From positions 13,197 to 67,948 of the forward strand of contig CADEDH010000034.1 in the NCBI GenBank assembly GCA_902826025.1: DNA of 54,752 bases, written 5' to 3'. The notes under the pieces are model-generated. The model was given only the letters and a program-made list of their open reading frames with translations. It ran no database searches and had not been told where the DNA came from. Shown here piece by piece: positions 12,640-51,122 of this stretch. A program made the position numbers and the translations under genes. Numbering within the stretch: position 1 is the first letter of the stretch; each line of letters opens with the position of its first letter. This DNA is from an uncultured Actinomycetes bacterium. Lineage in GTDB: Bacteria; Actinomycetota; Acidimicrobiia; Acidimicrobiales; SZUA-35.

Positions 12640-13856
12640 GCGAGGCTGAACTCCGGGCTCGACAGGGCGAGGCGCCACCGGGTGTGCTGGGCCTCCTCCA
12701 CCGGCAGCTCGTCCGACGAGCGAACGGCGTCGAGGGCGGCCCTGGTGGCGGTTGACAGTTCCTGCAGGCCGCAGCGGTCGAGGATGTCGTCCACCGTGCC
12801 CGAGCGGCCAGGGGCCATGGCCTCCCAGTCGGTGTCGAAGGCGAGCGACGCCCGGGCCAGCAGCGAGCCGGGGCTGAGCCAGCGCGGGCCGTCGGGCCAG
12901 CCTCCCACGTTGGGCGGTTGGTACGGCATCTGGCCCAGACTCTGGAGGGTCCAGGCATCGTCGGCCGGGGTGCCGACCACCGCCCGGTAGGCGGTGAACC
13001 ACTCCAGCCCGCTGCGGGGCCGGTTGAGGCGGGCGGTGGCGGCGGCCGGGTCGAGCAGAACGCGCTCCACCAGGTCGGGTACGGCCAGTTCCTGCTCCTG
13101 CCACCACTTCCCCAGGTCGGCGGCGGCCGCCGGATCGAGGTCGGTGCCCACCAGGTGGTGCCACAAGCGGGTGCTCACGCGCTGGGCCGTCTCCGGCTGG
13201 TCGCACAGGAAGTCGACCACCTTGGCGGTGTCCCAGTCGTCCTGCACCCCCTTGAACAGCAGGGGGGCCACGAAGGCGTTCTCCCGCCGCCAGCTCACCT
13301 CGCCGTCCTCCACCACCCAACCGGCCAGGGCCCGGGCGGCCGAGCGCACGTCATCCTCGGTGTAGGCGTCTCGGCCGACGGTGAACAGCTCCATCAGCTC
13401 CCGGGCCAGGTTCTCGTTCGGGTTGGCCGCCATCGAGCCGTCGGCGTCGAGGTACTGGACGAGGGCCCCGCCCGTCACGTAGGCGTGCAGGATCGTGCGG
13501 TAGTCGCCCAGGGCACCAGACCGCAGGTCGGTGAGCTGGCGGCGGATGAGGCCGGCCGACGACACCTTGTCGGCCGAGGTGGTGAGCAGCCCGTGCCAGA
13601 ACCAGGCCATCCGCTCCCGGAGACCGCTGGTGGGGTCGATCATCCGGTTCACCCACCAGGTGACGAGGTCGGTCCAGTCGTCGGTGGCCGGCGGGTCGTC
13701 GCCGGCGTCGGCACCGGTGGCACGGCTGAGCACGTCGGCCACGGCGTCGTCCCAGCTCAGATCGGCCAGTTGGTCGATCCGGGACGGGTTGACGGTGAGG
13801 CTGGTGCGTCGCAGGAGGTGGGCGGCCCGCGCCCGGCCCGGGTGGCGCTCGATCAT
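12636..13856 (-). CDS. DUF1800 domain-containing protein
   Basis: 406 residues from the ATG at 13856 (an open frame continues upstream but is only antisense to the response regulator). Family landmarks are HLLRRTSLTVNPSRIDQL at the N-terminus, the block MAWFWHGLLTTSADKV, NENLARELMELFTVGRDAYT in the middle and YQPPNVGGWPDGPRW near the end. DUF1800 proteins are partners of DUF1501 proteins and are thought to act at the envelope; the biochemical role is unknown. It leads a three-gene operon and is divergent from the response regulator, with about 105 bases between for both promoters. Confidence 0.92.
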   Translation of the reverse strand: MIERHPGRARAAHLLRRTSLTVNPSRIDQLADLSWDDAVADVLSRATGADAGDDPPATDDWTDLVTWWVNRMIDPTSGLRERMAWFWHGLLTTSADKVSSAGLIRRQLTDLRSGALGDYRTILHAYVTGGALVQYLDADGSMAANPNENLARELMELFTVGRDAYTEDDVRSAARALAGWVVEDGEVSWRRENAFVAPLLFKGVQDDWDTAKVVDFLCDQPETAQRVSTRLWHHLVGTDLDPAAAADLGKWWQEQELAVPDLVERVLLDPAAATARLNRPRSGLEWFTAYRAVVGTPADDAWTLQSLGQMPYQPPNVGGWPDGPRWLSPGSLLARASLAFDTDWEAMAPGRSGTVDDILDRCGLQELSTATRAALDAVRSSDELPVEEAQHTRWRLALSSPEFSLA

Positions 13857-37889: not shown

Positions 37890-39392
37890 ATGACCCTCGA
37901 CGACCGGCGGACGGGGCAGGAGGTGGCGACCTACCAGCGGCTCCGCGAGCAGAACCCGGCCTGGCGCCTCCTGGCCGCCCGGCGGGCCCCTCTCGTCCTG
38001 GCCTGCCTGAGCCGCCTGTTCGCCCACCCGGGGGAACGGGTCACGTTCGACGATGCCGTCCAGTTGCTGGCCGAGCTACTGGCTGAGCACGCCAACAATC
38101 CCGACTACGAAATCCGATCGGCCGAACTGGGCCGGCTGGCCCGCCGGGAGCTGCGCGACCAGATCCGGGCCAAGCTGCTGGTGGAGCGGGACGGCGAGCT
38201 GGCCGCCACCGATGCCCTCCAGCAGGTGTTCCGCTTCGTCGAACGGCTGGAAGACCGGATGATGAGCTCCACCGCCTCCCGCCTTGCCATGGTGCAGCAC
38301 CAGATCGCCGAGGTTGCGGCCCGGCTCGATCCCGACCCCGAGGCCCGGTCGGCCCGGATCCGGCAGCGGATCGCCGAGCTCGAGGCCGAGCTGGCGGCGG
38401 TCGACGCCGGCGACGTCCCGGTGCTGGAGGGCGAACCGGCGGTGGAAGCCATCCAGGACGTCTACGCCCTCACGTTGAGCCTGCGGGATGATTTCGGGCG
38501 GGTCGAAGACTCCTACCGCCGGGCCGACCAGGATCTCCGTATCGCCATCATCCGCGATCAGCAGCATCGGGGTCTGGTGGTCGACCGCTTGCTCGAAGGG
38601 CACGAGGCCCTGATCGAGACCTCCGAGGGGCGGGTGTTCCAGGCCTTCTACACCCAGCTGAACGCCAGCGAAGACCTGGAGCAGATGAGCCGGAACCTGG
38701 CCCGGATCCTCGAGTCGGAGGCGGCCCTGGCCGGCCTGTCCCGCCAGCAGCAGATCGACCTGCGCCGGATCCGCAGCCGCCTGGTGGCCGAGTCGACCAA
38801 CGTGGTCCGGGCCCGGGCCCGCAGCGAACGCGACGTCCGCAATTACCTCCGCAGCGGTCTCGGCCTCGAGCACCAGCGGGTCACCGAGCTCCTCGATGCC
38901 ATCCTGGAGCGGGCGCTCGACGTCGACTGGAGCCGCCAGGCGGTACGTCGCTCCCCCACCCCGCTCCCGCCGGTCGGGATACCGGTGGCGGTGCCCGTGC
39001 CCGAACGGCTCCGGGCCGCCGACATCGATATCGACGGGTCGGGCGATCTCGACTTCGTACCCCAACCGGCCCAGCTGGCCGACATCGACAACGAGTTGTG
39101 GCTCGCTCTCCAGGGGCTCGACCGCCAGGCCTGGGCCTCCCGCACGGTCGAGGTGCTGGTGCGGGAAGGTCGTCCCCTGACGATGGCCGAGCTGGCCGGG
39201 GCCCTGCCCCCCACCCACGACCTGGAGACGGTGACGGTGTGGATCGAGATGGCCAGTCAGGCGGAAGCGGCGGTGGGCGACGAGCCCGACTCGTTCGACG
39301 TCGAACCCGACGACGGGCCACCGCTGCGGTTCACGGTGCCCACCATCGTGTTCGAGCCGGAGGCGATGGCCGAACGGAGCTGGGAGCTGTGA
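37890..39392 (+). CDS. jetA: Wadjet system protein JetA (DUF3375)
   Basis: 500 residues. The N-terminal block YQRLREQNPAWRLLAARRAP, then LVLACLSRLF, is the DUF3375 signature; the rest is helical and ends in a short winged-helix-like region (VEVLVREGRPLTMAELAGAL). JetA is the kleisin-like subunit (MukF/MksF-like) that bridges the heads of the JetC SMC dimer. It leads the four-gene jet operon, and its stop is four bases before jetB. Wadjet complexes extrude DNA loops and cut small circular DNA, protecting against plasmids. Confidence 0.95.
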   Translation: MTLDDRRTGQEVATYQRLREQNPAWRLLAARRAPLVLACLSRLFAHPGERVTFDDAVQLLAELLAEHANNPDYEIRSAELGRLARRELRDQIRAKLLVERDGELAATDALQQVFRFVERLEDRMMSSTASRLAMVQHQIAEVAARLDPDPEARSARIRQRIAELEAELAAVDAGDVPVLEGEPAVEAIQDVYALTLSLRDDFGRVEDSYRRADQDLRIAIIRDQQHRGLVVDRLLEGHEALIETSEGRVFQAFYTQLNASEDLEQMSRNLARILESEAALAGLSRQQQIDLRRIRSRLVAESTNVVRARARSERDVRNYLRSGLGLEHQRVTELLDAILERALDVDWSRQAVRRSPTPLPPVGIPVAVPVPERLRAADIDIDGSGDLDFVPQPAQLADIDNELWLALQGLDRQAWASRTVEVLVREGRPLTMAELAGALPPTHDLETVTVWIEMASQAEAAVGDEPDSFDVEPDDGPPLRFTVPTIVFEPEAMAERSWEL

Positions 39393-39396
39393 GGCG

Positions 39397-40185
39397 ATGA
39401 CGACGGAAATCAACGAGCCACCCCGATCGGTGTTCGACGAGCTGACGCTCGGTGTGCCGGCCGGGCCGGGCCCCACCGGTGCAGCCGTTGCAACCGTCGT
39501 TGCCCCGGTGGCGCCGGCCATCCCCCCGGCCGGACCCCCCGAGGGAACACCGGCCCGGGTCAAGCAGGCCACCCAGGAGCTGTTGCGTCTCGGGGCCCTC
39601 TACGCCGAGGCCAAACCGAACCTCTACCAGGCGGTGCTGGCCAACCGGACCCTGGTGGCGGCCGCCCTGGAACCGCTCGACCTGGCCTTCCGGGTCGACG
39701 AGGTGCGGGGCCTCGTGGTGCTCGTGGTGTCCCCGTCGATCAAGGCCGGAGCGGCGGCCGAGCCGGGTGCCGGCGACTCGGGCCCGACCGGCCAGCGTCC
39801 GGGCGATCCGGGCGAGGAGTGGCAGCATCCACTGGTGCGACGGCAACGGCTCACGCTGGCCCAGTCGCTGCTGCTGGCCATCCTGCGCCGGCGGTATGTA
39901 GAGCACGAGAAGACGGCGTCGGGCACCACGGCGGCCCGGGTGCCGGTCGACGAGCTCGTACCCGAGCTGGCCACCTACCTGGGAGACGAGGGGAGCGACT
40001 CGGCCAACCAGTCCCGCCTTCGGCGGCTGCTGGACCAGCTACGGGATCACGGCATCGTGTCCGCCGTCGACGACGACGAGCAGGTCACCATCCGGCCCCT
40101 CATCTGTCACGTGGCCGACCCGACGTCGCTGGCCCTGCTCCTGCACCACTACAACCAGCTGACCGGTGGAGGTGACGAGCGGTGA
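39397..40185 (+). CDS. jetB: Wadjet system protein JetB (DUF4194)
   Basis: 262 residues. A proline/alanine-rich N-terminus is followed by the DUF4194 region: ATQELLRLGALYAEAKPNLY, VRRQRLTLAQSLLLAILRRR and RRLLDQLRDHGIVSAVDDDE, a winged-helix KITE-like (MukE/MksE) arrangement. It binds JetA in the SMC complex. Its stop overlaps the jetC GTG (GTGA). Confidence 0.94.
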   Translation: MTTEINEPPRSVFDELTLGVPAGPGPTGAAVATVVAPVAPAIPPAGPPEGTPARVKQATQELLRLGALYAEAKPNLYQAVLANRTLVAAALEPLDLAFRVDEVRGLVVLVVSPSIKAGAAAEPGAGDSGPTGQRPGDPGEEWQHPLVRRQRLTLAQSLLLAILRRRYVEHEKTASGTTAARVPVDELVPELATYLGDEGSDSANQSRLRRLLDQLRDHGIVSAVDDDEQVTIRPLICHVADPTSLALLLHHYNQLTGGGDER

Positions 40186-43100
40186 CGGTCAACGCGCTCG
40201 CCCTGGACTTCGACGACCTGCACGAGACGCTGATCCTGCGGCAACTGGAGGTCTACAACTGGGGCCCGTTCGCCCGTAGCCACCGGGCCGAGATCGACCC
40301 CCGGGGCACCGCCATCGTGGGGCCCACCGGCAGCGGCAAGACCACCCTGGTCGACGCGCTCATGACCCTCATCGTCGGCCAGCCCCGGTACAACCTGGCA
40401 TCCACCGGAGGCCACGACAGTGACCGCGATCTCATGTCCTACGTGCGGGGTGTGGTGGGCCACGGAAACGACACGGGCGACGTCAGCCACGTGTCACGCC
40501 CCGGTCGCACGGTCACCGGCCTGGCGGCCACCTTCAGCCGCCCCGGCCGGACCGTCATACTCGGCGCGCTGCTGTGGACCGACGGCACCTCCATGTCGGC
40601 GGCGGACTGCAAGAAGCGGTGGCTCATAGCCGAAGACGCCGGGGAGAGCCTGGAGCAGTGGTTGCGGGTCCATCACGAAGGCGGCGCCCGGGCGCTGGGC
40701 CGCTACGAGTCCGAGCGGCCCCGGCTGGCGATCTTCGAGTCGAAGAAGACCTACCTGGCCCGGGTGCGCCGCCTGTTCGACATCAGCGAGAACGCCTTCG
40801 ATCTGCTCAACCGGGCGGCCGGCCTCAAGCAGCTCGACAGTGTCGACCATCTGTTCCGGGAGCTGGTGCTCGACGACCATTCGGCCTTTCGCCGGGCCAC
40901 CCAGGTGGTGGCCGAGTTCGACGACCTGGCCGGCATCCGGGCCGAGCTGGAGACGGCCCGCCGCCAGCAGGCCTCGTTGGCCCCCCTCGTCCGCTTGGAG
41001 GAGCGGCACCGGCTGCTTACCGGTGAGCGGGTCGAACAGGAACAGGCCGGGGCGCTCCTCGGGCGGTGGGTGGCGCGGGCCGGCCAGCGCCTGTGGCGGG
41101 CCCGGCGTGATGAGCTGATCGCTGATCTGGCCCGGCTGGAGGCCGAGGGCGACGAGCTGGCCCGCCGCATCTCCCAGGCCCAGGCCGAGGCTGAGGAGCG
41201 TCACGCCGCCTATCTGCAGGCCGGGGGCGCCAACCTCGACCAGCTGGAGGCCACGATGGCCCACCAGCGACGGCTGCTGGCCGATCGGGAGCGGGCCTTG
41301 GCCCACCACGGCCAGGTGGTGAGCCAGCTGCGGGCCGTGCTGGGCCTGGCCGTTGCGGACCCCGGTCCCGAGCCGTCGGCGGCGTGGCTGAGCGGGCTGC
41401 AGGCCGAGGCCCGACGGCTCGAGCCCACCCTGAACGACAGCCGAGAGGAGACCGAGGCCGAGTTCCAGCGGGCGGCTTCGGCGGTGGGGACGGCCAGCAC
41501 CGAGCTGGAGGCGGCCCGCCACGACCTGGAACAGATCAGGTCTCGGCCGGGATCGAACATCCCGCCCGCCTACCAGGACTTCCGGGCCGACCTGGCGGCA
41601 GCGGTGGGGGCCGACCCGTTCGAGCTGCCGTTCGTGGCCGAGCTGGTGTCGGTGCGGGCCAGCGAGCAGGCGTGGCGGGGGGCGATCGAGCGGGCCATCG
41701 GCGCCCACCGGCTGCGGATCCTGGTGCCCGAGGTCCGGCTGGGTGAGGCACTGCGATGGGTGAATGACCGCCACCACGGGCTGCACGTGCGGTTGGAGCA
41801 GGGTGACGGATCCGTCGGCCGATCGGCCGACCGGCAGGGCGAGCCGTTCGACGACAGCTTCCTCCACAAGCTCGACCGGCGCGACCATCCGCTCGCCGGT
41901 GGGCTGTGGCGGCTCCTGGTGTCGGTCGACCGGCACTGCGTCGAGCGGGCCAGCGACCTGGAGCGTACGCCGTTCGCCATGACCCGGGAGGGTTTGCTGT
42001 CGGGCCCGACCGGGCGGTTCGACAAGCAGGATCAGCGGCGGCTCACCGACGATTGGCTCACCGGGTTCGACAACCGGGCCCAGCTGGCGGCGCTCGGCGA
42101 ACGGGTGGCGGAGTTGGAGGTGGAGACCGCCTCGGCTCAGGCCCGGTACCGGGCCGCCGCCGTCCGACGCGATGGTTTCGTCCGCGGTCTCGAGCTGCTC
42201 GACGGCCTGGAGCGGCTCACGTTCGACGAGATCGACGTGGCCGGCGCCCGGCGGGAGCTGGAAACGCTGGAGCAGCGGCACCAGCGCCTGAGCGACCCTG
42301 CGGGCGACGCCGCCCAGGCCCAGCTCAGGTACCGGGAAGCCCAGCAGGCCGTCGGCGAGCTGCAAGCCGAGGAGGCGGCCCGGCTCAAGGCGGTGGGGGC
42401 CACCGACCGCGACCAGCAGCAGGCGGCGGCCGAGCTGGCCCAGGCCGAGGCGGGGATGGGGGATGAGTTCAGCGGGGCCGAGGCCGAGCTGGCGGCACGG
42501 ATCCTGCCCGACCTCAGCGACCAGGCTCCAGCGGGGCTGGCCGGGGTGGAACGGGAGTGGCGGGGGCGGATCGGGGCCAGGGTGGTGGAGTTGGGTGACG
42601 AGCTGGGTCGGGTCGGTCAGCTGCTGGTCCGGCAGATGACGGCGGCCAAGGGAGAAGACACGGGCGAGCTGGCCGAGGCCGGTACCGACCTGATCGACCT
42701 GCCGGTGTACCTCAACCGCCTGGAGGTGCTGACCACCGAGGCGCTGCCCAAGCGTCAGCAGCGCTTCCTCGAGTACCTGAACCTGTCGTCGGACCAGGGG
42801 GTGTCGTCGCTGCTGGCCACGATCGACGCCGAGGTCGATGCCATCGTGAACCGGATCGCCGACCTTAACCGCACGCTGGAGAAGGTCGACTTCCAACCCG
42901 AGCGGTTCCTGCAACTGCGGCCCCGGCGGGTCACCCAGCAGGTGCTGGCCGAGCTGGTGCGGGCCCAGAAGGCGCTGGCGGCGGCCCGGTTCACCGACGA
43001 GACAGGGGAAGCCCAGTATCGGGCGCTGCAGGTGGTGATCGGTTTGCTGCGCCAGGCGGCCGACAACCGGGGGACGGTGGCGGCCCGGGCCCTGCTCGAC

Positions 43101-43529
43101 CCGCGGCACCGGCTGACGTTCTCGGTGGCGGTGGTGGAGCGGCAGTCGGGGGCGACGGTGGAGGTACGCACCAGCTCGGAGGGGGGCAGCGGCGGCGAGA
43201 AGGAGATCATCGCCAGCTACATCCTCACCGCCTCGCTGTCGTACGCGCTGTGCCTCGACGGGGCGGCCCAGCCGTTGTTCGGCACGATCGTGCTCGACGA
43301 GGCGTTCTCCAAGAGCTCGCAGACGGTGGCGGGGCGGATCATCGATGCGCTGGCCGTGTTCGGGTTGCATCCGCTGTTCGTCACACCGAACAAGGAGGTG
43401 CGGTTGCTGCGGGCCAACACCCGGTCGGCCATCGTGGTGAGCCGCCGAGGGCAGGAGTCGAGGTTGGTGGCCGTGTCGTGGGAGGAGCTCGACCAGTTGG
43501 CGGCCCGGGCCGGCGACGGCCCGTCGTGA
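40182..43529 (+). CDS. jetC: Wadjet system protein JetC, SMC-like ATPase
   Basis: 1115 residues. The N-terminal ATPase half has Walker A GPTGSGKTT (residues 47-55). Two long Ala/Glu/Arg-rich coiled-coil stretches lie either side of a hinge near residues 450-620. The C-terminal half supplies the ABC signature GGSGGEKE (about 1001-1008) and Walker B TIVLDEAF (about 1035-1042). This is the MukB/MksB/Rad50-like motor that extrudes DNA in Wadjet. All ATPase motifs are intact. Confidence 0.95.
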   Translation: MTVNALALDFDDLHETLILRQLEVYNWGPFARSHRAEIDPRGTAIVGPTGSGKTTLVDALMTLIVGQPRYNLASTGGHDSDRDLMSYVRGVVGHGNDTGDVSHVSRPGRTVTGLAATFSRPGRTVILGALLWTDGTSMSAADCKKRWLIAEDAGESLEQWLRVHHEGGARALGRYESERPRLAIFESKKTYLARVRRLFDISENAFDLLNRAAGLKQLDSVDHLFRELVLDDHSAFRRATQVVAEFDDLAGIRAELETARRQQASLAPLVRLEERHRLLTGERVEQEQAGALLGRWVARAGQRLWRARRDELIADLARLEAEGDELARRISQAQAEAEERHAAYLQAGGANLDQLEATMAHQRRLLADRERALAHHGQVVSQLRAVLGLAVADPGPEPSAAWLSGLQAEARRLEPTLNDSREETEAEFQRAASAVGTASTELEAARHDLEQIRSRPGSNIPPAYQDFRADLAAAVGADPFELPFVAELVSVRASEQAWRGAIERAIGAHRLRILVPEVRLGEALRWVNDRHHGLHVRLEQGDGSVGRSADRQGEPFDDSFLHKLDRRDHPLAGGLWRLLVSVDRHCVERASDLERTPFAMTREGLLSGPTGRFDKQDQRRLTDDWLTGFDNRAQLAALGERVAELEVETASAQARYRAAAVRRDGFVRGLELLDGLERLTFDEIDVAGARRELETLEQRHQRLSDPAGDAAQAQLRYREAQQAVGELQAEEAARLKAVGATDRDQQQAAAELAQAEAGMGDEFSGAEAELAARILPDLSDQAPAGLAGVEREWRGRIGARVVELGDELGRVGQLLVRQMTAAKGEDTGELAEAGTDLIDLPVYLNRLEVLTTEALPKRQQRFLEYLNLSSDQGVSSLLATIDAEVDAIVNRIADLNRTLEKVDFQPERFLQLRPRRVTQQVLAELVRAQKALAAARFTDETGEAQYRALQVVIGLLRQAADNRGTVAARALLDPRHRLTFSVAVVERQSGATVEVRTSSEGGSGGEKEIIASYILTASLSYALCLDGAAQPLFGTIVLDEAFSKSSQTVAGRIIDALAVFGLHPLFVTPNKEVRLLRANTRSAIVVSRRGQESRLVAVSWEELDQLAARAGDGPS

Positions 43530-44668
43530 GATCGCCCGACGAGGAGGCCCGACGGTTGGCCCGCCAGTGGGCTACCACCCGCACCCGGGCGGCCCGTTTG
43601 CTCGACGCCGGGCAGTGGCCGCTGGTGGTGACGTTGCCGCGGCCGCCGGCGGGCCTGGTGGCGGGGGGTGGCTGGGCCGAGGTGCGGGCCCATCTCGACG
43701 CCTGGCGGCGGGTGACGGTGGGAGAGGTGGTGTGGGAGCCGGTGTCGTACCGGGCCACCGGGGAGCCGATCGACGTGCCGGTGCGGTGGGTGCTGCGCTC
43801 CCCCACCGAATGGGTGGCGGCCACTGGTAGCGAGGTCGTGCGCCGGGAGCACGACGTGCTGGCCCGGCTGGTGGCCGGGGCCGATGCCCGGTACCGGCAG
43901 TTCCTGGTGGAGCGGAGCCCGTTGGTGCTGCGGCACCCGGAGGGCGAGGTGGCGGCGGCACTGCGGGTAGTGGAGGAGCTCGATGAGGGCTGCGCCGGCG
44001 GGGTCCCGCTGCGGGCGTTGCCGGTGGCGGGAGTCGACACCAAGTTCTTCGAGCGGAACCGGGCCCTGGTCACGGCCCTGCTCGACGTCCGGTTCGGGGG
44101 CGAGGTGTCGGCCCGGGGCCTGGAGGGGTTCCTGGGGGCGGCGGGGCCCGATGGCCACTGGTTGCTGGTAGCCGACCTCGACGGGGGGCTACTGCCATAC
44201 CGGCGGATGCGGGTGACCGACGGTGACCTGGCCGCCCACGGTGTGGCCGGACATCGCCTTCTGGTGGTGGAGAACGAGCGGTGCCTGCACGTGTTGCCGG
44301 CGGTGGCCGGCACGGTTGGCGTGCTGGGAGCCGGGCTCAACGTGGGGTGGGTGGCGGGGCCGGGCCTGGCCGGTCACGCCGTGGCCTACTGGGGTGATCT
44401 CGACACCTGGGGGTTGACGATGCTGGCCCGGGCCCGGGCGGCCCGGCCCGATCTGGTGGCGCTGTTGATGGACGGCGCCACGTTCGATGCGCACGAAGGC
44501 CGGGCGGTGCCCGAGCCCCAGCCGGCCCGGGCGCCCGAAGCCGGGCTGCAACCGGCGGAGGCGGCCCTGTTCGCCCGGTTGGCCGCGGCTGAGCGGGGCC
44601 GGCTGGAACAGGAACTGCTCCCAGCCGATCTCGTCGCTGCTGCGGTTGCCCGCTGGGCCTCTTGCTGA
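43526..44668 (+). CDS. jetD: Wadjet system nuclease JetD (DUF3322/DUF2220, Toprim)
   Basis: 380 residues from a GTG overlapping the jetC stop. The N-terminal DUF3322-like part contains VDTKFFERNRALVTALLD. The C-terminal Toprim fold shows its conserved glutamate in VVENERCLHVL and the DxD pair in YWGDLDTWGLTML, so the nuclease looks active. JetD cuts DNA after the JetABC motor has tested its size and topology. The four jet genes are complete, in order and tightly coupled. Confidence 0.94.
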   Translation: MRSPDEEARRLARQWATTRTRAARLLDAGQWPLVVTLPRPPAGLVAGGGWAEVRAHLDAWRRVTVGEVVWEPVSYRATGEPIDVPVRWVLRSPTEWVAATGSEVVRREHDVLARLVAGADARYRQFLVERSPLVLRHPEGEVAAALRVVEELDEGCAGGVPLRALPVAGVDTKFFERNRALVTALLDVRFGGEVSARGLEGFLGAAGPDGHWLLVADLDGGLLPYRRMRVTDGDLAAHGVAGHRLLVVENERCLHVLPAVAGTVGVLGAGLNVGWVAGPGLAGHAVAYWGDLDTWGLTMLARARAARPDLVALLMDGATFDAHEGRAVPEPQPARAPEAGLQPAEAALFARLAAAERGRLEQELLPADLVAAAVARWASC

Positions 44669-44927: not shown

Positions 44928-47573
44928 TTACCGGACCTCGATACCGCTCGAGGTCTGTCGCAGCGGGAGGCGGGTGGCCTGGTCGCCGAGGAGCTGGAAC
45001 GAGACCGCTGCTGCCATCCAGGCCGGCTCGCCCCGGTCCAGCATCGAGAGCCGCGCCCCGAGGACGGCGTCGTCCATGGGCATCCGGTCGACCAGGCCCC
45101 GGTGCACCAGTACGGCATACTCGGCCGCAGCGGAGTCCTGCACGATGGCCGAGGGGGCCAGCACCGCTCGGGCACCCAGGCCACGGAGTTCGAGGGCGGT
45201 ACCGATCACCACATCACCATCGCTGCGGCGGGCCACGGCCGTGGCCCCAGCATCGCACGATGCGAGGACCACGATCGACGGCACCCGATCGAGAGAACCC
45301 ATCTCCAGCAATGAGAGCTCTCCGTCAGCGAACACCAGTGAGGAGAAGAAGGGATTGTCGGTACGGAACGAGCCATGGGCGGCGATGTGCACAAGGTCGG
45401 ATGAGCGCAGCGCCGCCATGGCGTCGGCGCAGGTGGTCTCGGCGTCGGCCATGGACGGCTGGTTCCACATCGAGCGGATTCGAGCCAGCTCGCCGGCCGC
45501 GGCGGCCAGGTCGGGCCCGCTGAGGAGCGCGAGCCGCTCCACCGTCAGCGGTTCGGTACCGGCCAGCCATGATGCCAATGTCGGGGTGAAGGTGAGGGGG
45601 CGGCGCTGGAGCGAGGGAAGGGCGGCCCAGGTGACGTCGCGGAGCGCGGTCGGCACCGTCATCACCACCCGGGCTTGGCTGTCCAGGTCGAGCGGCCTGA
45701 CGAGGAGATGATCGAGGGCCCGGCTCGCGTCGAGCAGGCGGGCGGTCTGACCCAGGGAGCGCTGCGGGGGGCCAGAGGCCAACCCCCGCAGCGCGCTCCG
45801 CTGGGAGCGCACCGCAGGACCGATGCTGTCCACCGGGCCCACGTCACGCAGCACCGTGGCGCCGGTGGTGTGGACGACCGCCATGACCTGCCCGGCGTGT
45901 ACCGCGTAGGTGACGTAGACGGTGTCCGCCGGCAGGCCCTGGTGGCCAACCGGAGGATCAGCGGCTCGGGCCGCCAGCAGCGCACCTTCTGTGCGACGGG
46001 ATCGGAGGATCTCGTGTTCCGCCGTCCGCAGCTCGGCGGCCCAGGGCGTTGGATCGCCCCCGGTGATCTTGGCTTCCGCCACCTGCACCCGGAGGTGACG
46101 GAGCCGGGCCAGTGCGGCGTCGTGGCCCGCCAGCGAACCCGGGCGTGAGGCGGCTGTGGCCTGGACGCTGCGAACCCGCTCCAACACCTCGAGTACCGCA
46201 GGCGCGCGATCCTCGGCCCGGAGGGCCAGCCCCAGAGCCAGCTCCTGGATGGGTTGGGCCCGTTCCACGATCACTCGCCGCAGCTCAGCCGAGCCGAGCA
46301 GGTCCCGCTGGCGGTGCAGCGCATCCAGAGCCTCGTCGAAGGCGCGGCGGGCACTGTCGACATCGTGATCGAGGCTGGCCTGGAGCAGGGCGCAGACCGA
46401 CCGGTCGAGGGGGTCCACGTCGACGCCGGTCGTGCTTCGGCTCACCAGCGCCAGCAGGTGTCGAGCGCCTTCGGGATCGCTGGTCTGGCGGGCCATGGCC
46501 TGGCCCAGGCCGTAGGCGAACGCTTCGCGCGCCCAACCGGAGCGGAGGAACCGTTGGAGCTGTTTCTCCACGTCGCCCCGGTCGAGCTGATGCGATGGGT
46601 CCAAGTCGGCGGTGAGCTGCAGGGCCCGGAGCTGCCACGTCTCCTGCCCCACCTGCCGGGCCAGGACGGCTCCTCGCTCGATGGCCTGACGGGCCCCACG
46701 CCGATCGTTCAGCCGGACGAGGGCTTCGGCCAGGACGAGCTGGGCCTGGGTCTCGAGCATCTGGTTGGCACCCTCCCCGGCCAACCGGGCGGACCGCTGA
46801 GCCGCCTCGGCCGCATCGACCAGCAGGCCGACATCGAGCAAGGTTCGAGCGTGGTCGAGCTCGAGCACCGCCACCAGGAGCTCCACGTTGCCGAACTTCT
46901 CGAACCGAGCCCGTGCCAGCTCATACCACCGAAGGGCGGCGGCGAAGTCACCCCGCCGGGAGGCGAGGTCGCCCAGGTTGCCCTCGATCCCGGCGGCCAC
47001 CACGTGCTGCTCGGTGGTCACGGCCAGCTCCAGCGCCTGGGCGTACCAGCGCTCAGCGTCGTCCAGGTGGCCCATCAGGGCGGCGATGACCGCCAGGTTC
47101 ACCATGGCCCGGGCCTCACGGTTCTGGTCTCCAGCCTCGCGCAGCAAGTGCACGGCTTCCGTGGCCTGGTCCCGCGCCTCGTGCAGGCGACCCATCTCGA
47201 GGAGGATGACACCGCGTTGGTTGCGCAGCTGCCCGGCATGCCCGTGGCCCAGCTCCAGATCAGAGCGGTCCAGCAGAGCCAATGCCTCGTCGGGGTGGCC
47301 CTCCTTGCTCAGCACCGGCGCCAGTGAGAGCAGGATCTCGGTGACGAGAGCCGGTTCGACGGCAAGCTGCCGTGCCTCGGACAGGAGGCGAACGGCATCG
47401 GCGATCCGGTTCCCGTACTGCGCGGCCCGACCCAGTACCAGCAGGGCGCGGGCACGGTCGGTGGACGACGCATCATGTCTCGCCAGGACGGCTCTGGCGT
47501 GGGCCAGCGCCTCGGCTGGAGCCGAGTAGATCCCTTCGGCGCCAGTGTTGTCCGGAGTGGATCCTTGTCCCAT
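44928..47573 (-). CDS. TPR-CHAT caspase-like protease
   Basis: 881 residues. The first about 450 residues are tetratricopeptide-type helical repeats (GHPDEALALLDRSDLELGHG, then GHLDDAERWYAQALELAVTT, DFAAALRWYELARARFEKFG). The C-terminal third is a CHAT (HetF-associated) peptidase. The catalytic dyad is present: histidine H733 in IAAHGSF and cysteine C773 in VLASCDAG, followed by the CHAT block GLGARAVLAPSAIVQDSAAA. No signal peptide, so cytoplasmic. CHAT proteases cleave partner proteins after sensing a trigger through the TPR part, for example in Craspase. It is divergent from the S8-sigma operon (126-base gap with a palindrome) and next to Wadjet. Confidence 0.93.
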   Translation of the reverse strand: MGQGSTPDNTGAEGIYSAPAEALAHARAVLARHDASSTDRARALLVLGRAAQYGNRIADAVRLLSEARQLAVEPALVTEILLSLAPVLSKEGHPDEALALLDRSDLELGHGHAGQLRNQRGVILLEMGRLHEARDQATEAVHLLREAGDQNREARAMVNLAVIAALMGHLDDAERWYAQALELAVTTEQHVVAAGIEGNLGDLASRRGDFAAALRWYELARARFEKFGNVELLVAVLELDHARTLLDVGLLVDAAEAAQRSARLAGEGANQMLETQAQLVLAEALVRLNDRRGARQAIERGAVLARQVGQETWQLRALQLTADLDPSHQLDRGDVEKQLQRFLRSGWAREAFAYGLGQAMARQTSDPEGARHLLALVSRSTTGVDVDPLDRSVCALLQASLDHDVDSARRAFDEALDALHRQRDLLGSAELRRVIVERAQPIQELALGLALRAEDRAPAVLEVLERVRSVQATAASRPGSLAGHDAALARLRHLRVQVAEAKITGGDPTPWAAELRTAEHEILRSRRTEGALLAARAADPPVGHQGLPADTVYVTYAVHAGQVMAVVHTTGATVLRDVGPVDSIGPAVRSQRSALRGLASGPPQRSLGQTARLLDASRALDHLLVRPLDLDSQARVVMTVPTALRDVTWAALPSLQRRPLTFTPTLASWLAGTEPLTVERLALLSGPDLAAAAGELARIRSMWNQPSMADAETTCADAMAALRSSDLVHIAAHGSFRTDNPFFSSLVFADGELSLLEMGSLDRVPSIVVLASCDAGATAVARRSDGDVVIGTALELRGLGARAVLAPSAIVQDSAAAEYAVLVHRGLVDRMPMDDAVLGARLSMLDRGEPAWMAAAVSFQLLGDQATRLPLRQTSSGIEVR

Positions 47574-47585
47574 GAGCTGGTGGAA

Positions 47586-47599
47586 CGTAGATTTCTACG
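47586..47599. promoter_or_regulatory. Palindrome between the divergent CHAT and S8 operons
   Basis: CGTAGA, TT, TCTACG: perfect six-base arms with a two-base spacer, 12 bases upstream of the CHAT start codon. It is in the only intergenic gap of the cassette and is a candidate operator or leader hairpin controlling the CHAT gene or both operons. A GGAAC (47582-47586) with CGTC (47608-47611) on the plus strand loosely resembles an ECF promoter, but the spacing is long. Confidence 0.4.
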
Positions 47600-47699
47600 G
47601 CCCTACCCGTCCTTTTTGTATCTGGCCCGCGCCAGCGGCGTTCTTGCTTTCAGCACCGCTTGGCCTAGTTGCCATCGCCATCCCTCATGGAGAACCAAC

Positions 47700-49241
47700 G
47701 TGGCAATCGACAGTAACCTCTTGAACGATGCGGATCCATCTGACTATCCCGCCGACCGGTTCCAGTTTCGAGCTGATTCCGCGGGGCGTCCGATTGTCAT
47801 TCGCCCCCGGGAGTTCCTCGCCAGTGGTGATCCGGTACAGGTGCGCGCTGCACTGAGCGCTGTCGCTCAGGAGCTCAACGTCGGGTCGAGCGCTGTCGAC
47901 CCCGTCTCGTTGCGGCGAACGGTGAACGACCCCGAGACACCGTGGTTCCGCTATGTCCTCACCGGCCCCGAAGACACTGACGTGTTGAGGCTGGTCCAGG
48001 GCCTGCGCCAACGTGGAATCCCGGCCCAGCCGAACCACGTCTATTTCATAGCTTCCCTGTCGGCCCAGGGCACCACGGTGTCGGCGCCGAACACGTTCAC
48101 CCCGAACACGTTCACCGGTCAGGTGTTCGCCCCCAACACCTTTACTCCCAACACGTTCACCCCCAACACGTTCACCGGTGGAGCTTGGGGTGGGGGCGGG
48201 TGCTGCTGTGAGGCCGGACCGGCCGAAACGGTGTCGGTCCCGGTGCCGCAGTTCGGTGCCCGACCCGCAGAGGCACCCGCTGCCGACCCCGCCGTGGCGG
48301 AACCGGCTGGCCACGATCGCCTGGACGTCCACGTCATCGACATCGCAAGCCCATTGGCGGCCGAGCACAAGGCCAACGCGGTCGGCGAGCTGGACAAGGC
48401 GACCATCGATCCGCCTGGCAATCCGGGCAAGGGCGAGATCGATTTTCGCAACACAAGCTGGAACGTGAACGAGAACCTCGACGATTGGGCCGACCCGGCC
48501 ACCGGCCACGGCGACTTTGTCAGGAGCGTGCTGCGGCTGCACTCGGGCCTCAAGGCCCCGAACCTGACCTTGTGGCACGCCGCCGGTCCACTCGGTGACA
48601 TCGACGACGCTGCACTCGTGAGCGCCCTCAATCACGCGGTTGCCAAAAGCAAGCCTGATTGCTGGCGCATTCTCAACCTGTCGCTCTGCGGCTACAACGA
48701 CGGTGACCTCTCCGCGCTGTACCTGGCGGACCGGATCCGGACGATGGTCGACGACGGTTGGGTGATCGTCGCCGCTGCGGGCAACAACGCCAGCTGCCGA
48801 CCGGCGTATCCTGCCGCCCTTCCAGGGGTGGTGGCGGTTGCGGCCCTCAGCCGGTGCGTGCCGGCCTGGTTCTCCAACTTCGGCCCCTGGGTGGACGTGG
48901 CGGTCCGTGGCGTGGATGTCCTCGCTGAGCTCCCGGACATGTCTCAAGAGGACCCCGGCGTCAAGGCTCTGAAGGTCGGTATAGGTGAGCTCCCGTCCAA
49001 TCCCGGAACGAAGGTGATGCTGCAGCTGGGCGATTTCAACACGGGTTGGGCGACCTGGAGCGGTACCAGCTTCGCGGCGCCCCGGGTGGCGGCCTGGATC
49101 GGACGGGCACTTGCCGACGAGGATCCGGCCCAGGCGGCCGACAGCGCGGCGAAGCGGGCTGTCATCGCCTCGGTGCTCAAGCGTGTGATCGACAATGAAG
49201 ACTGCGACTGGCTGCCCTATTACGGCCGGCTGATGCCATGA
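47700..49241 (+). CDS. S8 family subtilisin-like protease with PNTFT-repeat linker
   Basis: 513 residues from GTG 47700, with GGAG at 47690-47693. No signal peptide. Residues 1-125 look like a propeptide-type domain (TDVLRLVQGLRQRGIPAQPN). Residues 130-159 are PNTFT repeats, then a Gly stretch and three cysteines (GGGGCCC). The peptidase carries a full triad: D214 in VHVIDIAS, H270 in TGHGDFV, S457 in SGTSFAAP, with the oxyanion N362 in AAGNNAS. The protease is probably made as a zymogen whose linker is a cleavage target, a natural partner for the divergent CHAT protease. Its stop overlaps the sigma gene ATG. Confidence 0.92.
   Translation: MAIDSNLLNDADPSDYPADRFQFRADSAGRPIVIRPREFLASGDPVQVRAALSAVAQELNVGSSAVDPVSLRRTVNDPETPWFRYVLTGPEDTDVLRLVQGLRQRGIPAQPNHVYFIASLSAQGTTVSAPNTFTPNTFTGQVFAPNTFTPNTFTPNTFTGGAWGGGGCCCEAGPAETVSVPVPQFGARPAEAPAADPAVAEPAGHDRLDVHVIDIASPLAAEHKANAVGELDKATIDPPGNPGKGEIDFRNTSWNVNENLDDWADPATGHGDFVRSVLRLHSGLKAPNLTLWHAAGPLGDIDDAALVSALNHAVAKSKPDCWRILNLSLCGYNDGDLSALYLADRIRTMVDDGWVIVAAAGNNASCRPAYPAALPGVVAVAALSRCVPAWFSNFGPWVDVAVRGVDVLAELPDMSQEDPGVKALKVGIGELPSNPGTKVMLQLGDFNTGWATWSGTSFAAPRVAAWIGRALADEDPAQAADSAAKRAVIASVLKRVIDNEDCDWLPYYGRLMP
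48087..48176 (+). repeat. In-frame PNTFT pentapeptide repeats of the S8 protease
   Basis: Thirty codons encode PNTFT twice, GQVFA once, then PNTFT three times. The DNA copies differ mainly at third positions (for example CCGAACACGTTCACC against CCCAACACCTTTACT), so protein-level selection rather than recent duplication keeps them alike. They sit between the propeptide-like domain and the catalytic domain. Confidence 0.9.
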
Positions 49242-49843
49242 CGGTTCAGGCAGCATCGGGGAGGCCCGGCTCCGGCACGAGAGCTACGGTGGGCCCAGTG
49301 GACGGGGAGTCGACGACCGCCGGGCTGCTCGCAGCGGCCCTCGCCGGCGATGCGGAAGCTTGGGCCGAGATCGTGGCCGAACACACGCAGATGCTGTGGT
49401 GGATAGCGCGCGGTTACCGGCTCGATGACGCCACGGCCATGGACGTCGTCCAGACGGTGTGGTTGCAGCTCCTCCGGTTCGGTGACCGGATTCAGGACCA
49501 CTCGCGGTTGCCCGGCTGGCTGGCCACCACCGCACGGCGTGAGTCGCTGCGGCGCTTGTCGGGCCACGAGGTGCTTCCCGGCCGGCCGCTCGACGTGGTC
49601 GACACGACTGCCCCCTCCCCGGAGGAGTTGGCGGTGGACGACGACCAGGTGGGCCGGGCGCTGGCGGCCTTCGCCCAACTCGATCCGGCCGACCAACGGC
49701 TGCTCCGGCTCGTCTGCGCCGTGCCGCCTAAGAGCTACAAAGAGATCGCGGCTCTCCTGAACTGGCCGGTTGGTTCCATCGGCCCGTCCCGCCAGCGGGC
49801 GATCCGTCGACTGAAAGCGTTCTTGAACGAGGAGGACTTGTGA
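49238..49843 (+). CDS. ECF-like sigma-70 family RNA polymerase sigma factor
   Basis: 201 residues. Region 2 is visible as DAEAWAEIVAEHTQMLWWIA and TAMDVVQTVWLQLLRF, and region 4 as SYKEIAALLNWPVGSIGPSR with the recognition helix and RAIRRLKAFL. The ATG at 49238 overlaps the S8 stop (ATGA); a GTG at 49298 would give a more typical N-terminus. No classical anti-sigma gene with a membrane helix follows; instead there is a small soluble protein. It likely drives its own divergent cassette and perhaps other genes. Confidence 0.9.
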   Translation: MTVQAASGRPGSGTRATVGPVDGESTTAGLLAAALAGDAEAWAEIVAEHTQMLWWIARGYRLDDATAMDVVQTVWLQLLRFGDRIQDHSRLPGWLATTARRESLRRLSGHEVLPGRPLDVVDTTAPSPEELAVDDDQVGRALAAFAQLDPADQRLLRLVCAVPPKSYKEIAALLNWPVGSIGPSRQRAIRRLKAFLNEEDL

Positions 49844-50322
49844 CCAACGATCCGGTGACGTCGGACGACGACATGCTGGCGTTGCTCCGCTCCGCCTTCC
49901 GAGGGTTCACGCCGGGCACCGTTCCGGCCGATGCCGAGCCGCCACCATCGCTCTTGGAGGGTTCGCTCTGGGTCCACCAGTGGCACAACATGGAATCGGA
50001 GCTTGCTGAGCTGACCTATGACTCATCCGTCCAGTCCCCAGTGAGCGTGCGATCGGGCAGCTCCCTCCGTCAGCTCACGTTCAGAAGCGGCGACCGCTCG
50101 ATCGAGATGGCGATCGAGCCCGCCGGGCGTAGCGTCGTGGTGTCGGGAGAGATCAGTCCCCCGCTCATCGGCACCATGCAACTGCTGGTGGGCGGCGAAA
50201 TGTTCGTGGCGGAGATCGATCCCAGTGGCAGCTTCATCGTCGAGGACGTGCCATTCGGCACGGTGTTGGCCTTCGTCGCCACGACGGGGATGAAGATCCG
50301 TCTCGGTGCCTTCGAGGTGTGA
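49840..50322 (+). CDS. Small beta-rich protein, possible sigma-factor regulator
   Basis: 160 residues from a GTG overlapping the sigma stop (GTGA). The acidic N-terminus (MTNDPVTSDDDMLALLRSAF) could pair with a sigma factor. The C-terminal half is beta-rich (RSVVVSGEISPPLIGTMQLL, FVAEIDPSGSFIVEDVPFGT) and looks like a transthyretin-like or carboxypeptidase-regulatory-like domain. No signal peptide or membrane helix, so it would be cytoplasmic. By position it is the candidate anti-sigma or protease substrate of the cassette; function is inferred only. Confidence 0.75.
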   Translation: MTNDPVTSDDDMLALLRSAFRGFTPGTVPADAEPPPSLLEGSLWVHQWHNMESELAELTYDSSVQSPVSVRSGSSLRQLTFRSGDRSIEMAIEPAGRSVVVSGEISPPLIGTMQLLVGGEMFVAEIDPSGSFIVEDVPFGTVLAFVATTGMKIRLGAFEV

Positions 50323-50780: not shown

Positions 50781-50984
50781 TTAGTTGGCGCTGAGTCCGG
50801 AGAGCTGGTTGTTCGTTCCCTGCCGGGTGATCATCTTCAGCTTGGCCTTGATCGGAGCGAGTGACTTCTCCGACGGCCAGGTGTAGACGAACGCCTTGTT
50901 CGAGCCTCGCTTGGGTTGCCGTTGGATACGGAAACCGAGGAAGTCGAACCCATCGTCGATGTGGACGGTCATCGCCTTTCCTCC
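50781..50984 (-). pseudogene. Group II intron reverse transcriptase/maturase relic
   Basis: The minus strand encodes MTVHIDDGFDFLGFRIQRQP, then AFVYTWPSEKSLAPIKAKLK and MITRQGTNNQLS before a premature stop at 50781. This is the region around the end of the RT domain and start of the maturase (X) domain of group II intron proteins, where D-G-F-D-F-L-G-F and the Tyr-x-x-Pro-S pattern are typical. Both ends are lost: no RT catalytic YADD and no C-terminal maturase or HNH. No intron RNA domain was seen nearby. Confidence 0.75.
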
Positions 50985-51122
50985 GACAGGCGCTGGGGTG
51001 GCCTGTGGATGCTCGCGCCAGGCGTGGTGTCGGTACGGCCTCCGACGCGCAGAAGTCCGAGGGACTGACGCGGCGCCGGATAGGATTCCCCACACTCGCC
51101 ACAACCCCTTCTGGGAGAAAAA

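Follow-up and report, generated by a model that had tools for sequence, protein, structure and literature searches.

The question raised by this locus is why two proteases, a sigma factor and a small protein should be encoded side by side, and whether the Wadjet defence system next to them has any part in their function. The DNA analysed here, referred to as the window, is a stretch of 54,752 nucleotides (positions 13,197 to 67,948 of the forward strand of contig CADEDH010000034.1, assembly GCA_902826025.1) from an uncultured Actinomycetes bacterium of the Acidimicrobiales (GTDB SZUA-35). One of the proteases combines tetratricopeptide repeats (TPR) with a caspase-like CHAT domain, the other is of the subtilisin-like S8 family, and the sigma factor is of the extracytoplasmic function (ECF) type. 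The four genes are a conserved actinobacterial unit. The reading that we favour, at somewhat better than even chances, is that the unit is a protease-gated transcription switch in which CHAT cuts a small anti-sigma factor at an arginine and so frees the sigma factor. The genes and the region that they share are as follows.

44928..47573, minus strand: TPR-CHAT cysteine protease, 881 amino acids, H733 and C773; likely sensor, outside the predicted sigma regulon
47574..47699, no strand: shared upstream region of 126 bases between the divergent CHAT and S8-sigma-small protein units, read from sequence
47700..49241, plus strand: S8 (subtilisin-like) protease, 513 amino acids, GTG start, D214, H270, N362 and S457; by eye without signal peptide
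49238..49843, plus strand: ECF-type sigma-70 factor, 201 amino acids
49840..50322, plus strand: small protein, likely anti-sigma factor, 160 amino acids, GTG start

Gene positions and overlaps were read directly from the window sequence, and domains were assigned by Pfam, NCBIfam and PADLOC profile searches. The S8 and sigma genes overlap in ATGA and the sigma and small-protein genes in GTGA, each over the stop codon of the first gene, the latter by 4 bases. A first-pass annotation, made from the letters alone, had described four genes with these overlaps, a 126-base control region and intact catalytic residues in both proteases, and all of these are found where it placed them. The CHAT protein matches TPR_12 (7.6e-17) and CHAT (PF12770, 9.9e-17) in Pfam, and the His-Cys dyad that defines a CHAT protease is kept throughout the 48 CHAT domains from the fetched loci described below. 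The S8 protein matches Peptidase_S8 at 6.8e-13 in Pfam; its triad and oxyanion Asn (D214, H270, N362, S457) are the same in all 74 aligned sequences, which are part of 120 listed relatives and include that of the window. In 48 S8 proteins from the loci the His is present in 47, the Asn in 47 and the Ser in 46, two misses being gaps (L055, L063) and one a different S8 protein (L103). PADLOC models gave weak generic matches to the four proteins, the best at 8.2e-6 to a TPR model.

That the four genes belong together is seen in their distribution. The small protein was the anchor for all locus searches, and it was matched in 9 of 61 genomes close to that of the window and in 41 of 295 genomes of the class, CHAT likewise being matched in 41 of the 295. 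Both were found in 34 of the class genomes, the small protein only in 7, CHAT only in 7 and neither in 247 (Fisher p 9.5e-31). CHAT lies within 10 kb on the contig for 37 of 51 small-protein matches, and the small protein is near 37 of 72 CHAT matches. Further comparison was based on 64 loci, namely the window and 63 fetched loci: 10 other matches from the 61-genome search, 40 stretches from the class and 13 named actinobacterial loci, the last including Acrocarpospora, Nonomuraea, Cellulomonas and a Thermoleophilia metagenome-assembled genome. Profiles built from the loci detect the sigma factor in 58 of the 64, CHAT in 48, S8 in 46, both proteases in 42 and either protease in 52, with some of the misses falling at contig ends; sigma is missed in six loci, four of them Acrocarpospora orthologues and the others L088 and L104. 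These genome counts and profiles bear out the earlier claim that the four genes co-occur as a unit. The arrangement is not a product of chance, because L012, from the same family as the window, repeats the whole unit in identical order and orientation. Gene order is reshuffled between lineages. No additional gene recurs inside the unit in the 64 loci; five unmatched genes occur inside it, in four loci, and a TPR piece in five loci looks by eye like the N-terminal part of CHAT. The genome of the window also holds, on contig C5, a degraded-looking paralogue pair (L102), with an in-frame stop in the sigma match and a small protein that lacks the linker arginine considered below.

The sigma factor exceeds the Pfam cut-off for Sigma70_r2 (3.1e-10), region 4 falling below its own, and it scores 60.4 bits with NCBIfam sigma70-ECF against a cut-off of 42.9, with no other domain, as expected of an ECF sigma-70 factor; SigE in the PDB matches it at 4e-7. 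Its pairing with the small protein, which had been proposed at the outset, holds well beyond the window: the sigma profile is matched in 58 of 64 loci that were fetched by way of the small protein, and the start chosen for the small protein overlaps the sigma stop in 40 of the 64, by exactly 4 bases in 28, the choice being made by a script that favours such starts.

On its own the small protein of the window matches no Pfam or NCBIfam family. Twelve of 40 aligned relatives, the window's protein not among them, match PF13620 CarboxypepD_reg, a non-catalytic beta-sandwich domain, at E 0.01 or better (best 1.4e-5), and this match is regarded as weak because 1 of 120 listed relatives carries the domain precomputed. 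AlphaFold2, run with 92 sequences, gave a mean predicted local distance difference test score (pLDDT) of 82 and a predicted template modelling score (pTM) of 0.59. The predicted fold is in two parts, with helices at residues 9-21 and 36-63, a loop at 65-72 with pLDDT below 50 and an eight-strand beta-sandwich at 77-159; the VIA rows span residues 73-160 only. A transmembrane segment is by eye absent. The predicted disordered linker carries the residue on which the favoured reading turns.

50050..50052, plus strand: R71 codon, within the loop predicted to be disordered; candidate site of cleavage by CHAT, from alignment and AlphaFold2

R71 stands out as the conserved position of an otherwise variable loop. 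Leaving aside one truncated protein, 58 of the 63 small proteins from the loci have Arg here, as do 123 of 123 in a similarity-picked set that contains the window's protein twice. Its presence goes with that of the protease: where the locus has CHAT, 46 of 46 small proteins keep the arginine, against 12 of 17 where it does not (p 0.0009); judged by the whole genome, 38 of 39 small proteins keep it when CHAT is present and 3 of 7 when it is absent (p 0.001). A further 21 loci, many of them close orthologues, were inspected by eye; the loop holds an arginine in all 21, of which 18 have CHAT in the stretch. Arginine specificity is a feature of clan CD proteases. The alignments point to R71 as a candidate CHAT cleavage site. 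The small protein itself is likely to be an anti-sigma factor.

A second line of evidence concerns what the sigma factor might read. Among 119 regions upstream of S8, sigma and CHAT genes that head transcription units (L020 and L104, which have no anchor gene, were left out) there is a two-block motif, atGTATCAg, a gap of 13-15 and cnCTCcgt, with a core of GTATCA-N16/17-CTC, in most cases 50-125 bases upstream of the called start. When the test locus is left out of the matrix, a score of at least 12 bits is reached upstream of 26 of 44 S8 genes, 19 of 38 sigma genes and 0 of 37 CHAT genes, one CHAT upstream being too short to score. With the full matrix, that threshold is reached by 18 of the 360 remaining genes in these loci and by 6 of 410 upstream regions of S8 and sigma after shuffling, and the motif is found at S8 or sigma in 40 of 58 loci and at CHAT in 0 of the 28 of these with a scorable CHAT upstream; the loci behind these counts are not independent, five being Acrocarpospora and three Nonomuraea. 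The motif therefore stands before the S8-sigma-small protein unit, or before S8 or sigma where they are apart, but not before CHAT. CHAT looks like the sensor because the motif precedes S8 and sigma and never CHAT, and it would then be made independently of the sigma loop. In L012 the motif is strong, at 19.7 bits; the site in the window is as follows.

47616..47646, plus strand: predicted sigma promoter, TTGTATCTG, 14-base gap, CGTTCTTG; 84 bases before the S8 start; weak, 12.8 bits

The same control region has an inverted repeat, CGTAGA-TT-TCTACG, at 47586-47599 near the CHAT start.

A strict form of the pattern was also sought across 12 named module genomes, where it has 25 sites against 9 for the pattern read backwards. 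Eight of the 25 lie before S8 genes, three before sigma genes of such units and 14 elsewhere, two of these without a convincing gene. Genes with a site among the 14 include one for a haem peroxidase in two Acrocarpospora and one for an AAA_16 protein in three Nonomuraea, each checked with Pfam in a single copy, and a holin-like gene in three Nonomuraea (L113, L120, L124), where the site is 63-67 bases before the start and the family is phrog_9752 (best 2.1e-20, run on two). These holin-like genes are stand-alone and chromosomal with ordinary flanks, and no prophage is visible in the 10-11 kb read around them. Peroxidases adjoining the unit have a site 75-77 bases upstream in two Nonomuraea and none at L078 and L012. 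In L214 and L215 CHAT lies between the S8 gene and the peroxidase, both of which have a site, and none faces CHAT. Sites shared by related species may be common by descent, although their spacers differ. In the genome of the window, on contig C90 (L160), a strict match lies 78 bases before a gene that is by eye serine/threonine kinase-like, and may be due to chance.

The S8 protease is a usual predicted target, and its own architecture is informative. The AlphaFold2 model (pTM 0.87) consists of an N-terminal domain, a linker with pLDDT of about 40 at residues 121-167 and a subtilisin domain, and VIA matches to PCSK9 and unprocessed pro-subtilisins cover both the N-terminal domain and the catalytic part. 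An inhibitory prodomain packed on the catalytic domain is what defines an S8 zymogen, and the predicted structure has this shape, in agreement with the first-pass suggestion of a zymogen with a repeat linker.

47757..48047, plus strand: S8 N-terminal domain, residues 20-116, beta-alpha-beta-beta-alpha-beta, prodomain-like, by AlphaFold2
48060..48209, plus strand: linker, predicted to be disordered; tandem NTFTP repeats are followed by a Gly-rich stretch and CCC (48201-48209); pLDDT below 50 at 121-167

Tandem pentapeptides (PNMFA, PNLFA, PNTFT, PNTLT and similar), usually followed by CCC, are present in 27 of the 30 nearest S8 relatives (P0123-P0152, the first being the window's protein), and such repeats were seen by eye in 12 S8 proteins of the 64 loci. 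The repeats, at 48080-48209 in the window, sit between prodomain and catalytic domain, and those of PN type are followed by a Gly-rich stretch, usually with CCC. In other proteins of this kind the linker repeats are 5- or 6-residue units such as NPVYA, SPVYA, GNPVYL, SHGHYF and PYPGGT, of varying copy number. Sequence and length of the linker vary freely among relatives, and no near-invariant residue is found in residues 117-188 of the 74 aligned sequences.

We infer binding, cleavage and transcription from these patterns, and the order of events would be as follows. On sensing a signal, TPR-CHAT would cleave the small protein, the likely anti-sigma factor, at conserved R71 and so free the sigma factor. 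The freed sigma factor would read the GTATCA..CTC motif and give rise to more sigma factor, more small protein and often more S8, so that the loop would be one of positive feedback with a built-in brake. In such a scheme CHAT would act upstream, the small protein would be the gate, the sigma factor the relay and S8 the usual output.

Several observations weigh against this scheme. No PDB match to the small-protein model was obtained with Foldseek at E 0.001 or better, and no known anti-sigma fold or relative was found for it. In the four Acrocarpospora loci without a sigma-profile match the small protein follows S8 directly. The arginine is kept by 3 of 7 small proteins in CHAT-less genomes and by 3 of 3 further loci without CHAT in the stretch, and 2 of 12 control columns likewise change where the locus lacks CHAT (D127, p 0.0035; A56, p 0.017), so that general divergence is a confounder and may explain part of the R71 pattern. 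The motif was discovered on the very sequences on which it was scored, is missing in 18 of 58 loci and is weak in the window. Among 23 loci where S8 and sigma head separate units, 5 have it before both, 10 before sigma alone, 5 before S8 alone and 3 before neither, and S8 is therefore not always a predicted target. It is absent, too, from two divergent paralogue groups in Acrocarpospora and Nonomuraea (L195-L209), which perhaps have another promoter specificity.

The first-pass annotation had proposed a cascade in which the CHAT protease acts on the S8 protein. In its fuller form, CHAT would cut and thereby activate the S8 zymogen, S8 would act on the small protein or on cell proteins, and the sigma factor would merely supply the components. 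The predicted prodomain and long disordered linker of S8 would suit such a role, as would the presence of both proteases in 42 of the 64 loci and the lack of a motif at S8 in 13 of the 23 loci where it heads a unit apart from sigma. However, the freely varying S8 linker has no near-invariant residue, and in at least 4 of the 48 CHAT loci (L052, L085, L092, L093) the fetched stretch contains sigma, small protein and CHAT without any match to S8. The likelier CHAT substrate is the small protein and not S8, because the linker of the former keeps an arginine, that of the latter has no near-invariant residue and the motif puts S8 downstream. The cascade is on these grounds unlikely: of the original proposal the protease-sigma switch stands in part, while the order of the cascade looks different, since the motif places S8 downstream of sigma in many loci. 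A further alternative is the one proposed in the literature for the ECF54 group, in which the sigma factor is controlled by destruction through S8 or CHAT without any anti-sigma factor; the small protein would then be a chaperone or adaptor. The shared gene context speaks for it, but the small-protein gene comes immediately after sigma and in 40 of 64 loci overlaps the sigma stop, its product is not a peptidase by any family match, and a dedicated soluble partner fits an anti-sigma factor. We consider this alternative distinctly unlikely.

It could also be supposed that the unit is an abortive-infection or anti-phage system. The window copy is directly adjoined upstream by Wadjet JetA-D at 37890-44668 (Pfam: DUF3375; DUF4194; SbcC_Walker_B with AAA_29; DUF3322 with JetD_C), which confirms the complete Wadjet system noted at first sight; CHAT proteases act in type III CRISPR (clustered regularly interspaced short palindromic repeats) systems, and a holin-like gene has the promoter motif in three Nonomuraea. 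None of the other 63 loci has a Wadjet protein, however, and the window copy is alone among the 64 in lying beside one. At most 4 of 108 adjacent proteins, probably 2, match PADLOC at 1e-10, and these are of generic kinds (an oxidoreductase model and three MotB/ZorB models). The 108 are our own gene calls from a list of 109, one very long protein having been left out, and the list covers loci other than the window, L020 and L104 and genes away from contig ends. Recurrent flanking genes are by eye metabolic or housekeeping, the commonest, an aminotransferase, occurring in 7 loci. A type III RAMP protein (PF03787, 1e-5), the effector component of Craspase, was found neither in the window's genome nor in 13 of 14 other module genomes tested. 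Because the Wadjet, PADLOC and RAMP searches came out negative, links to a defence island or to CRISPR are unsupported, and we give an anti-phage role little credence. On the other side of the unit, an open frame at 50781-51104 on the minus strand looks by eye like a fragment of a group II intron reverse transcriptase/maturase and has no Pfam match.

The favoured reading, a protease-gated switch, is easier to place when the unit is compared with known systems. Anti-sigma factors cut by proteases are known from CRISPR loci (PMC10028731, PMC11417357, PMC11229360). Type III-E Craspase (Csx29 TPR-CHAT, Csx30, CASP-sigma) resembles the unit in having a TPR-CHAT protease, a two-domain inhibitor with a flexible linker and a sigma factor for which the locus itself contains binding motifs (PMC10028731). 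Its inhibitor Csx30, however, has at least 565 residues, with the cleavage site in a loop of the C-terminal domain, whereas the small protein of the unit has 160 residues; Craspase is also defined by a Cas7-11/RAMP effector, while the unit has no RAMP in the window's genome and adds an S8 zymogen that is often under the predicted promoter. The earlier analogy of a CRISPR-like protease-sigma logic without CRISPR stands: of 15 module genomes tested, 14 gave no type III RAMP protein. In CalpL/CalpT/CalpS of type III CRISPR a protease similarly cuts an anti-sigma factor bound to an ECF sigma (PMC11417357), but CalpL is a Lon protease with a SAVED sensor and CRISPR-dependent, whereas the unit has TPR-CHAT. 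The SAVED-CHAT of type III CRISPR likewise has a CHAT protease acting through a proteolysis cascade (PMC11229360), with a SAVED sensor for cyclic triadenylate (cA3) in place of the TPR repeats of the unit, which has no CRISPR. RseA/DegS/RpoE is comparable in that regulated proteolysis destroys an anti-sigma factor (PMC10028731). RseA has a transmembrane segment and envelope stress as its signal; the small protein differs in the former respect.

A close precedent lies in gene context. For ECF54 (Huang 2015; Casas-Pastor 2021, as cited in PMC8999054) the review describes an ECF sigma factor with CHAT, a subtilase and a 'carboxypeptidase', proposing control by proteolysis, and the unit shares this context. 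The claim of a new system thus fails as regards the gene neighbourhood. The review assumes no anti-sigma factor and counts a carboxypeptidase, whereas the third protein of the unit is apparently of non-catalytic CarboxypepD_reg type and likely an anti-sigma factor. It would appear to be the 'carboxypeptidase' of the review, and that name may be a domain-name artefact. In the literature searched, primary ECF papers aside, we did not find in print the anti-sigma reading, the arginine site, the motif separating CHAT from the regulon or the S8 linker, all of which are apparently new.

A more far-reaching version of the switch is tentatively suggested. The unit might be a widespread CRISPR-free counterpart of Craspase, in which a stand-alone actinobacterial TPR-CHAT protease cuts a beta-sandwich anti-sigma factor at one near-invariant arginine and the sigma factor fires a self-amplifying regulon. 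Its usual output would be an S8 zymogen with a repeat linker and a Cys-cluster prodomain hinge; some lineages would have added haem peroxidase and holin-like genes, giving a bacterial caspase-to-executioner cascade by way of transcription. Switches that lead from a protease to a sigma factor have been described in envelope-stress systems and a small number of CRISPR loci, and the unit would be a common, CRISPR-free and soluble actinobacterial version of them. For the sigma factors themselves, it suggests that the ECF54 group has an anti-sigma factor after all.

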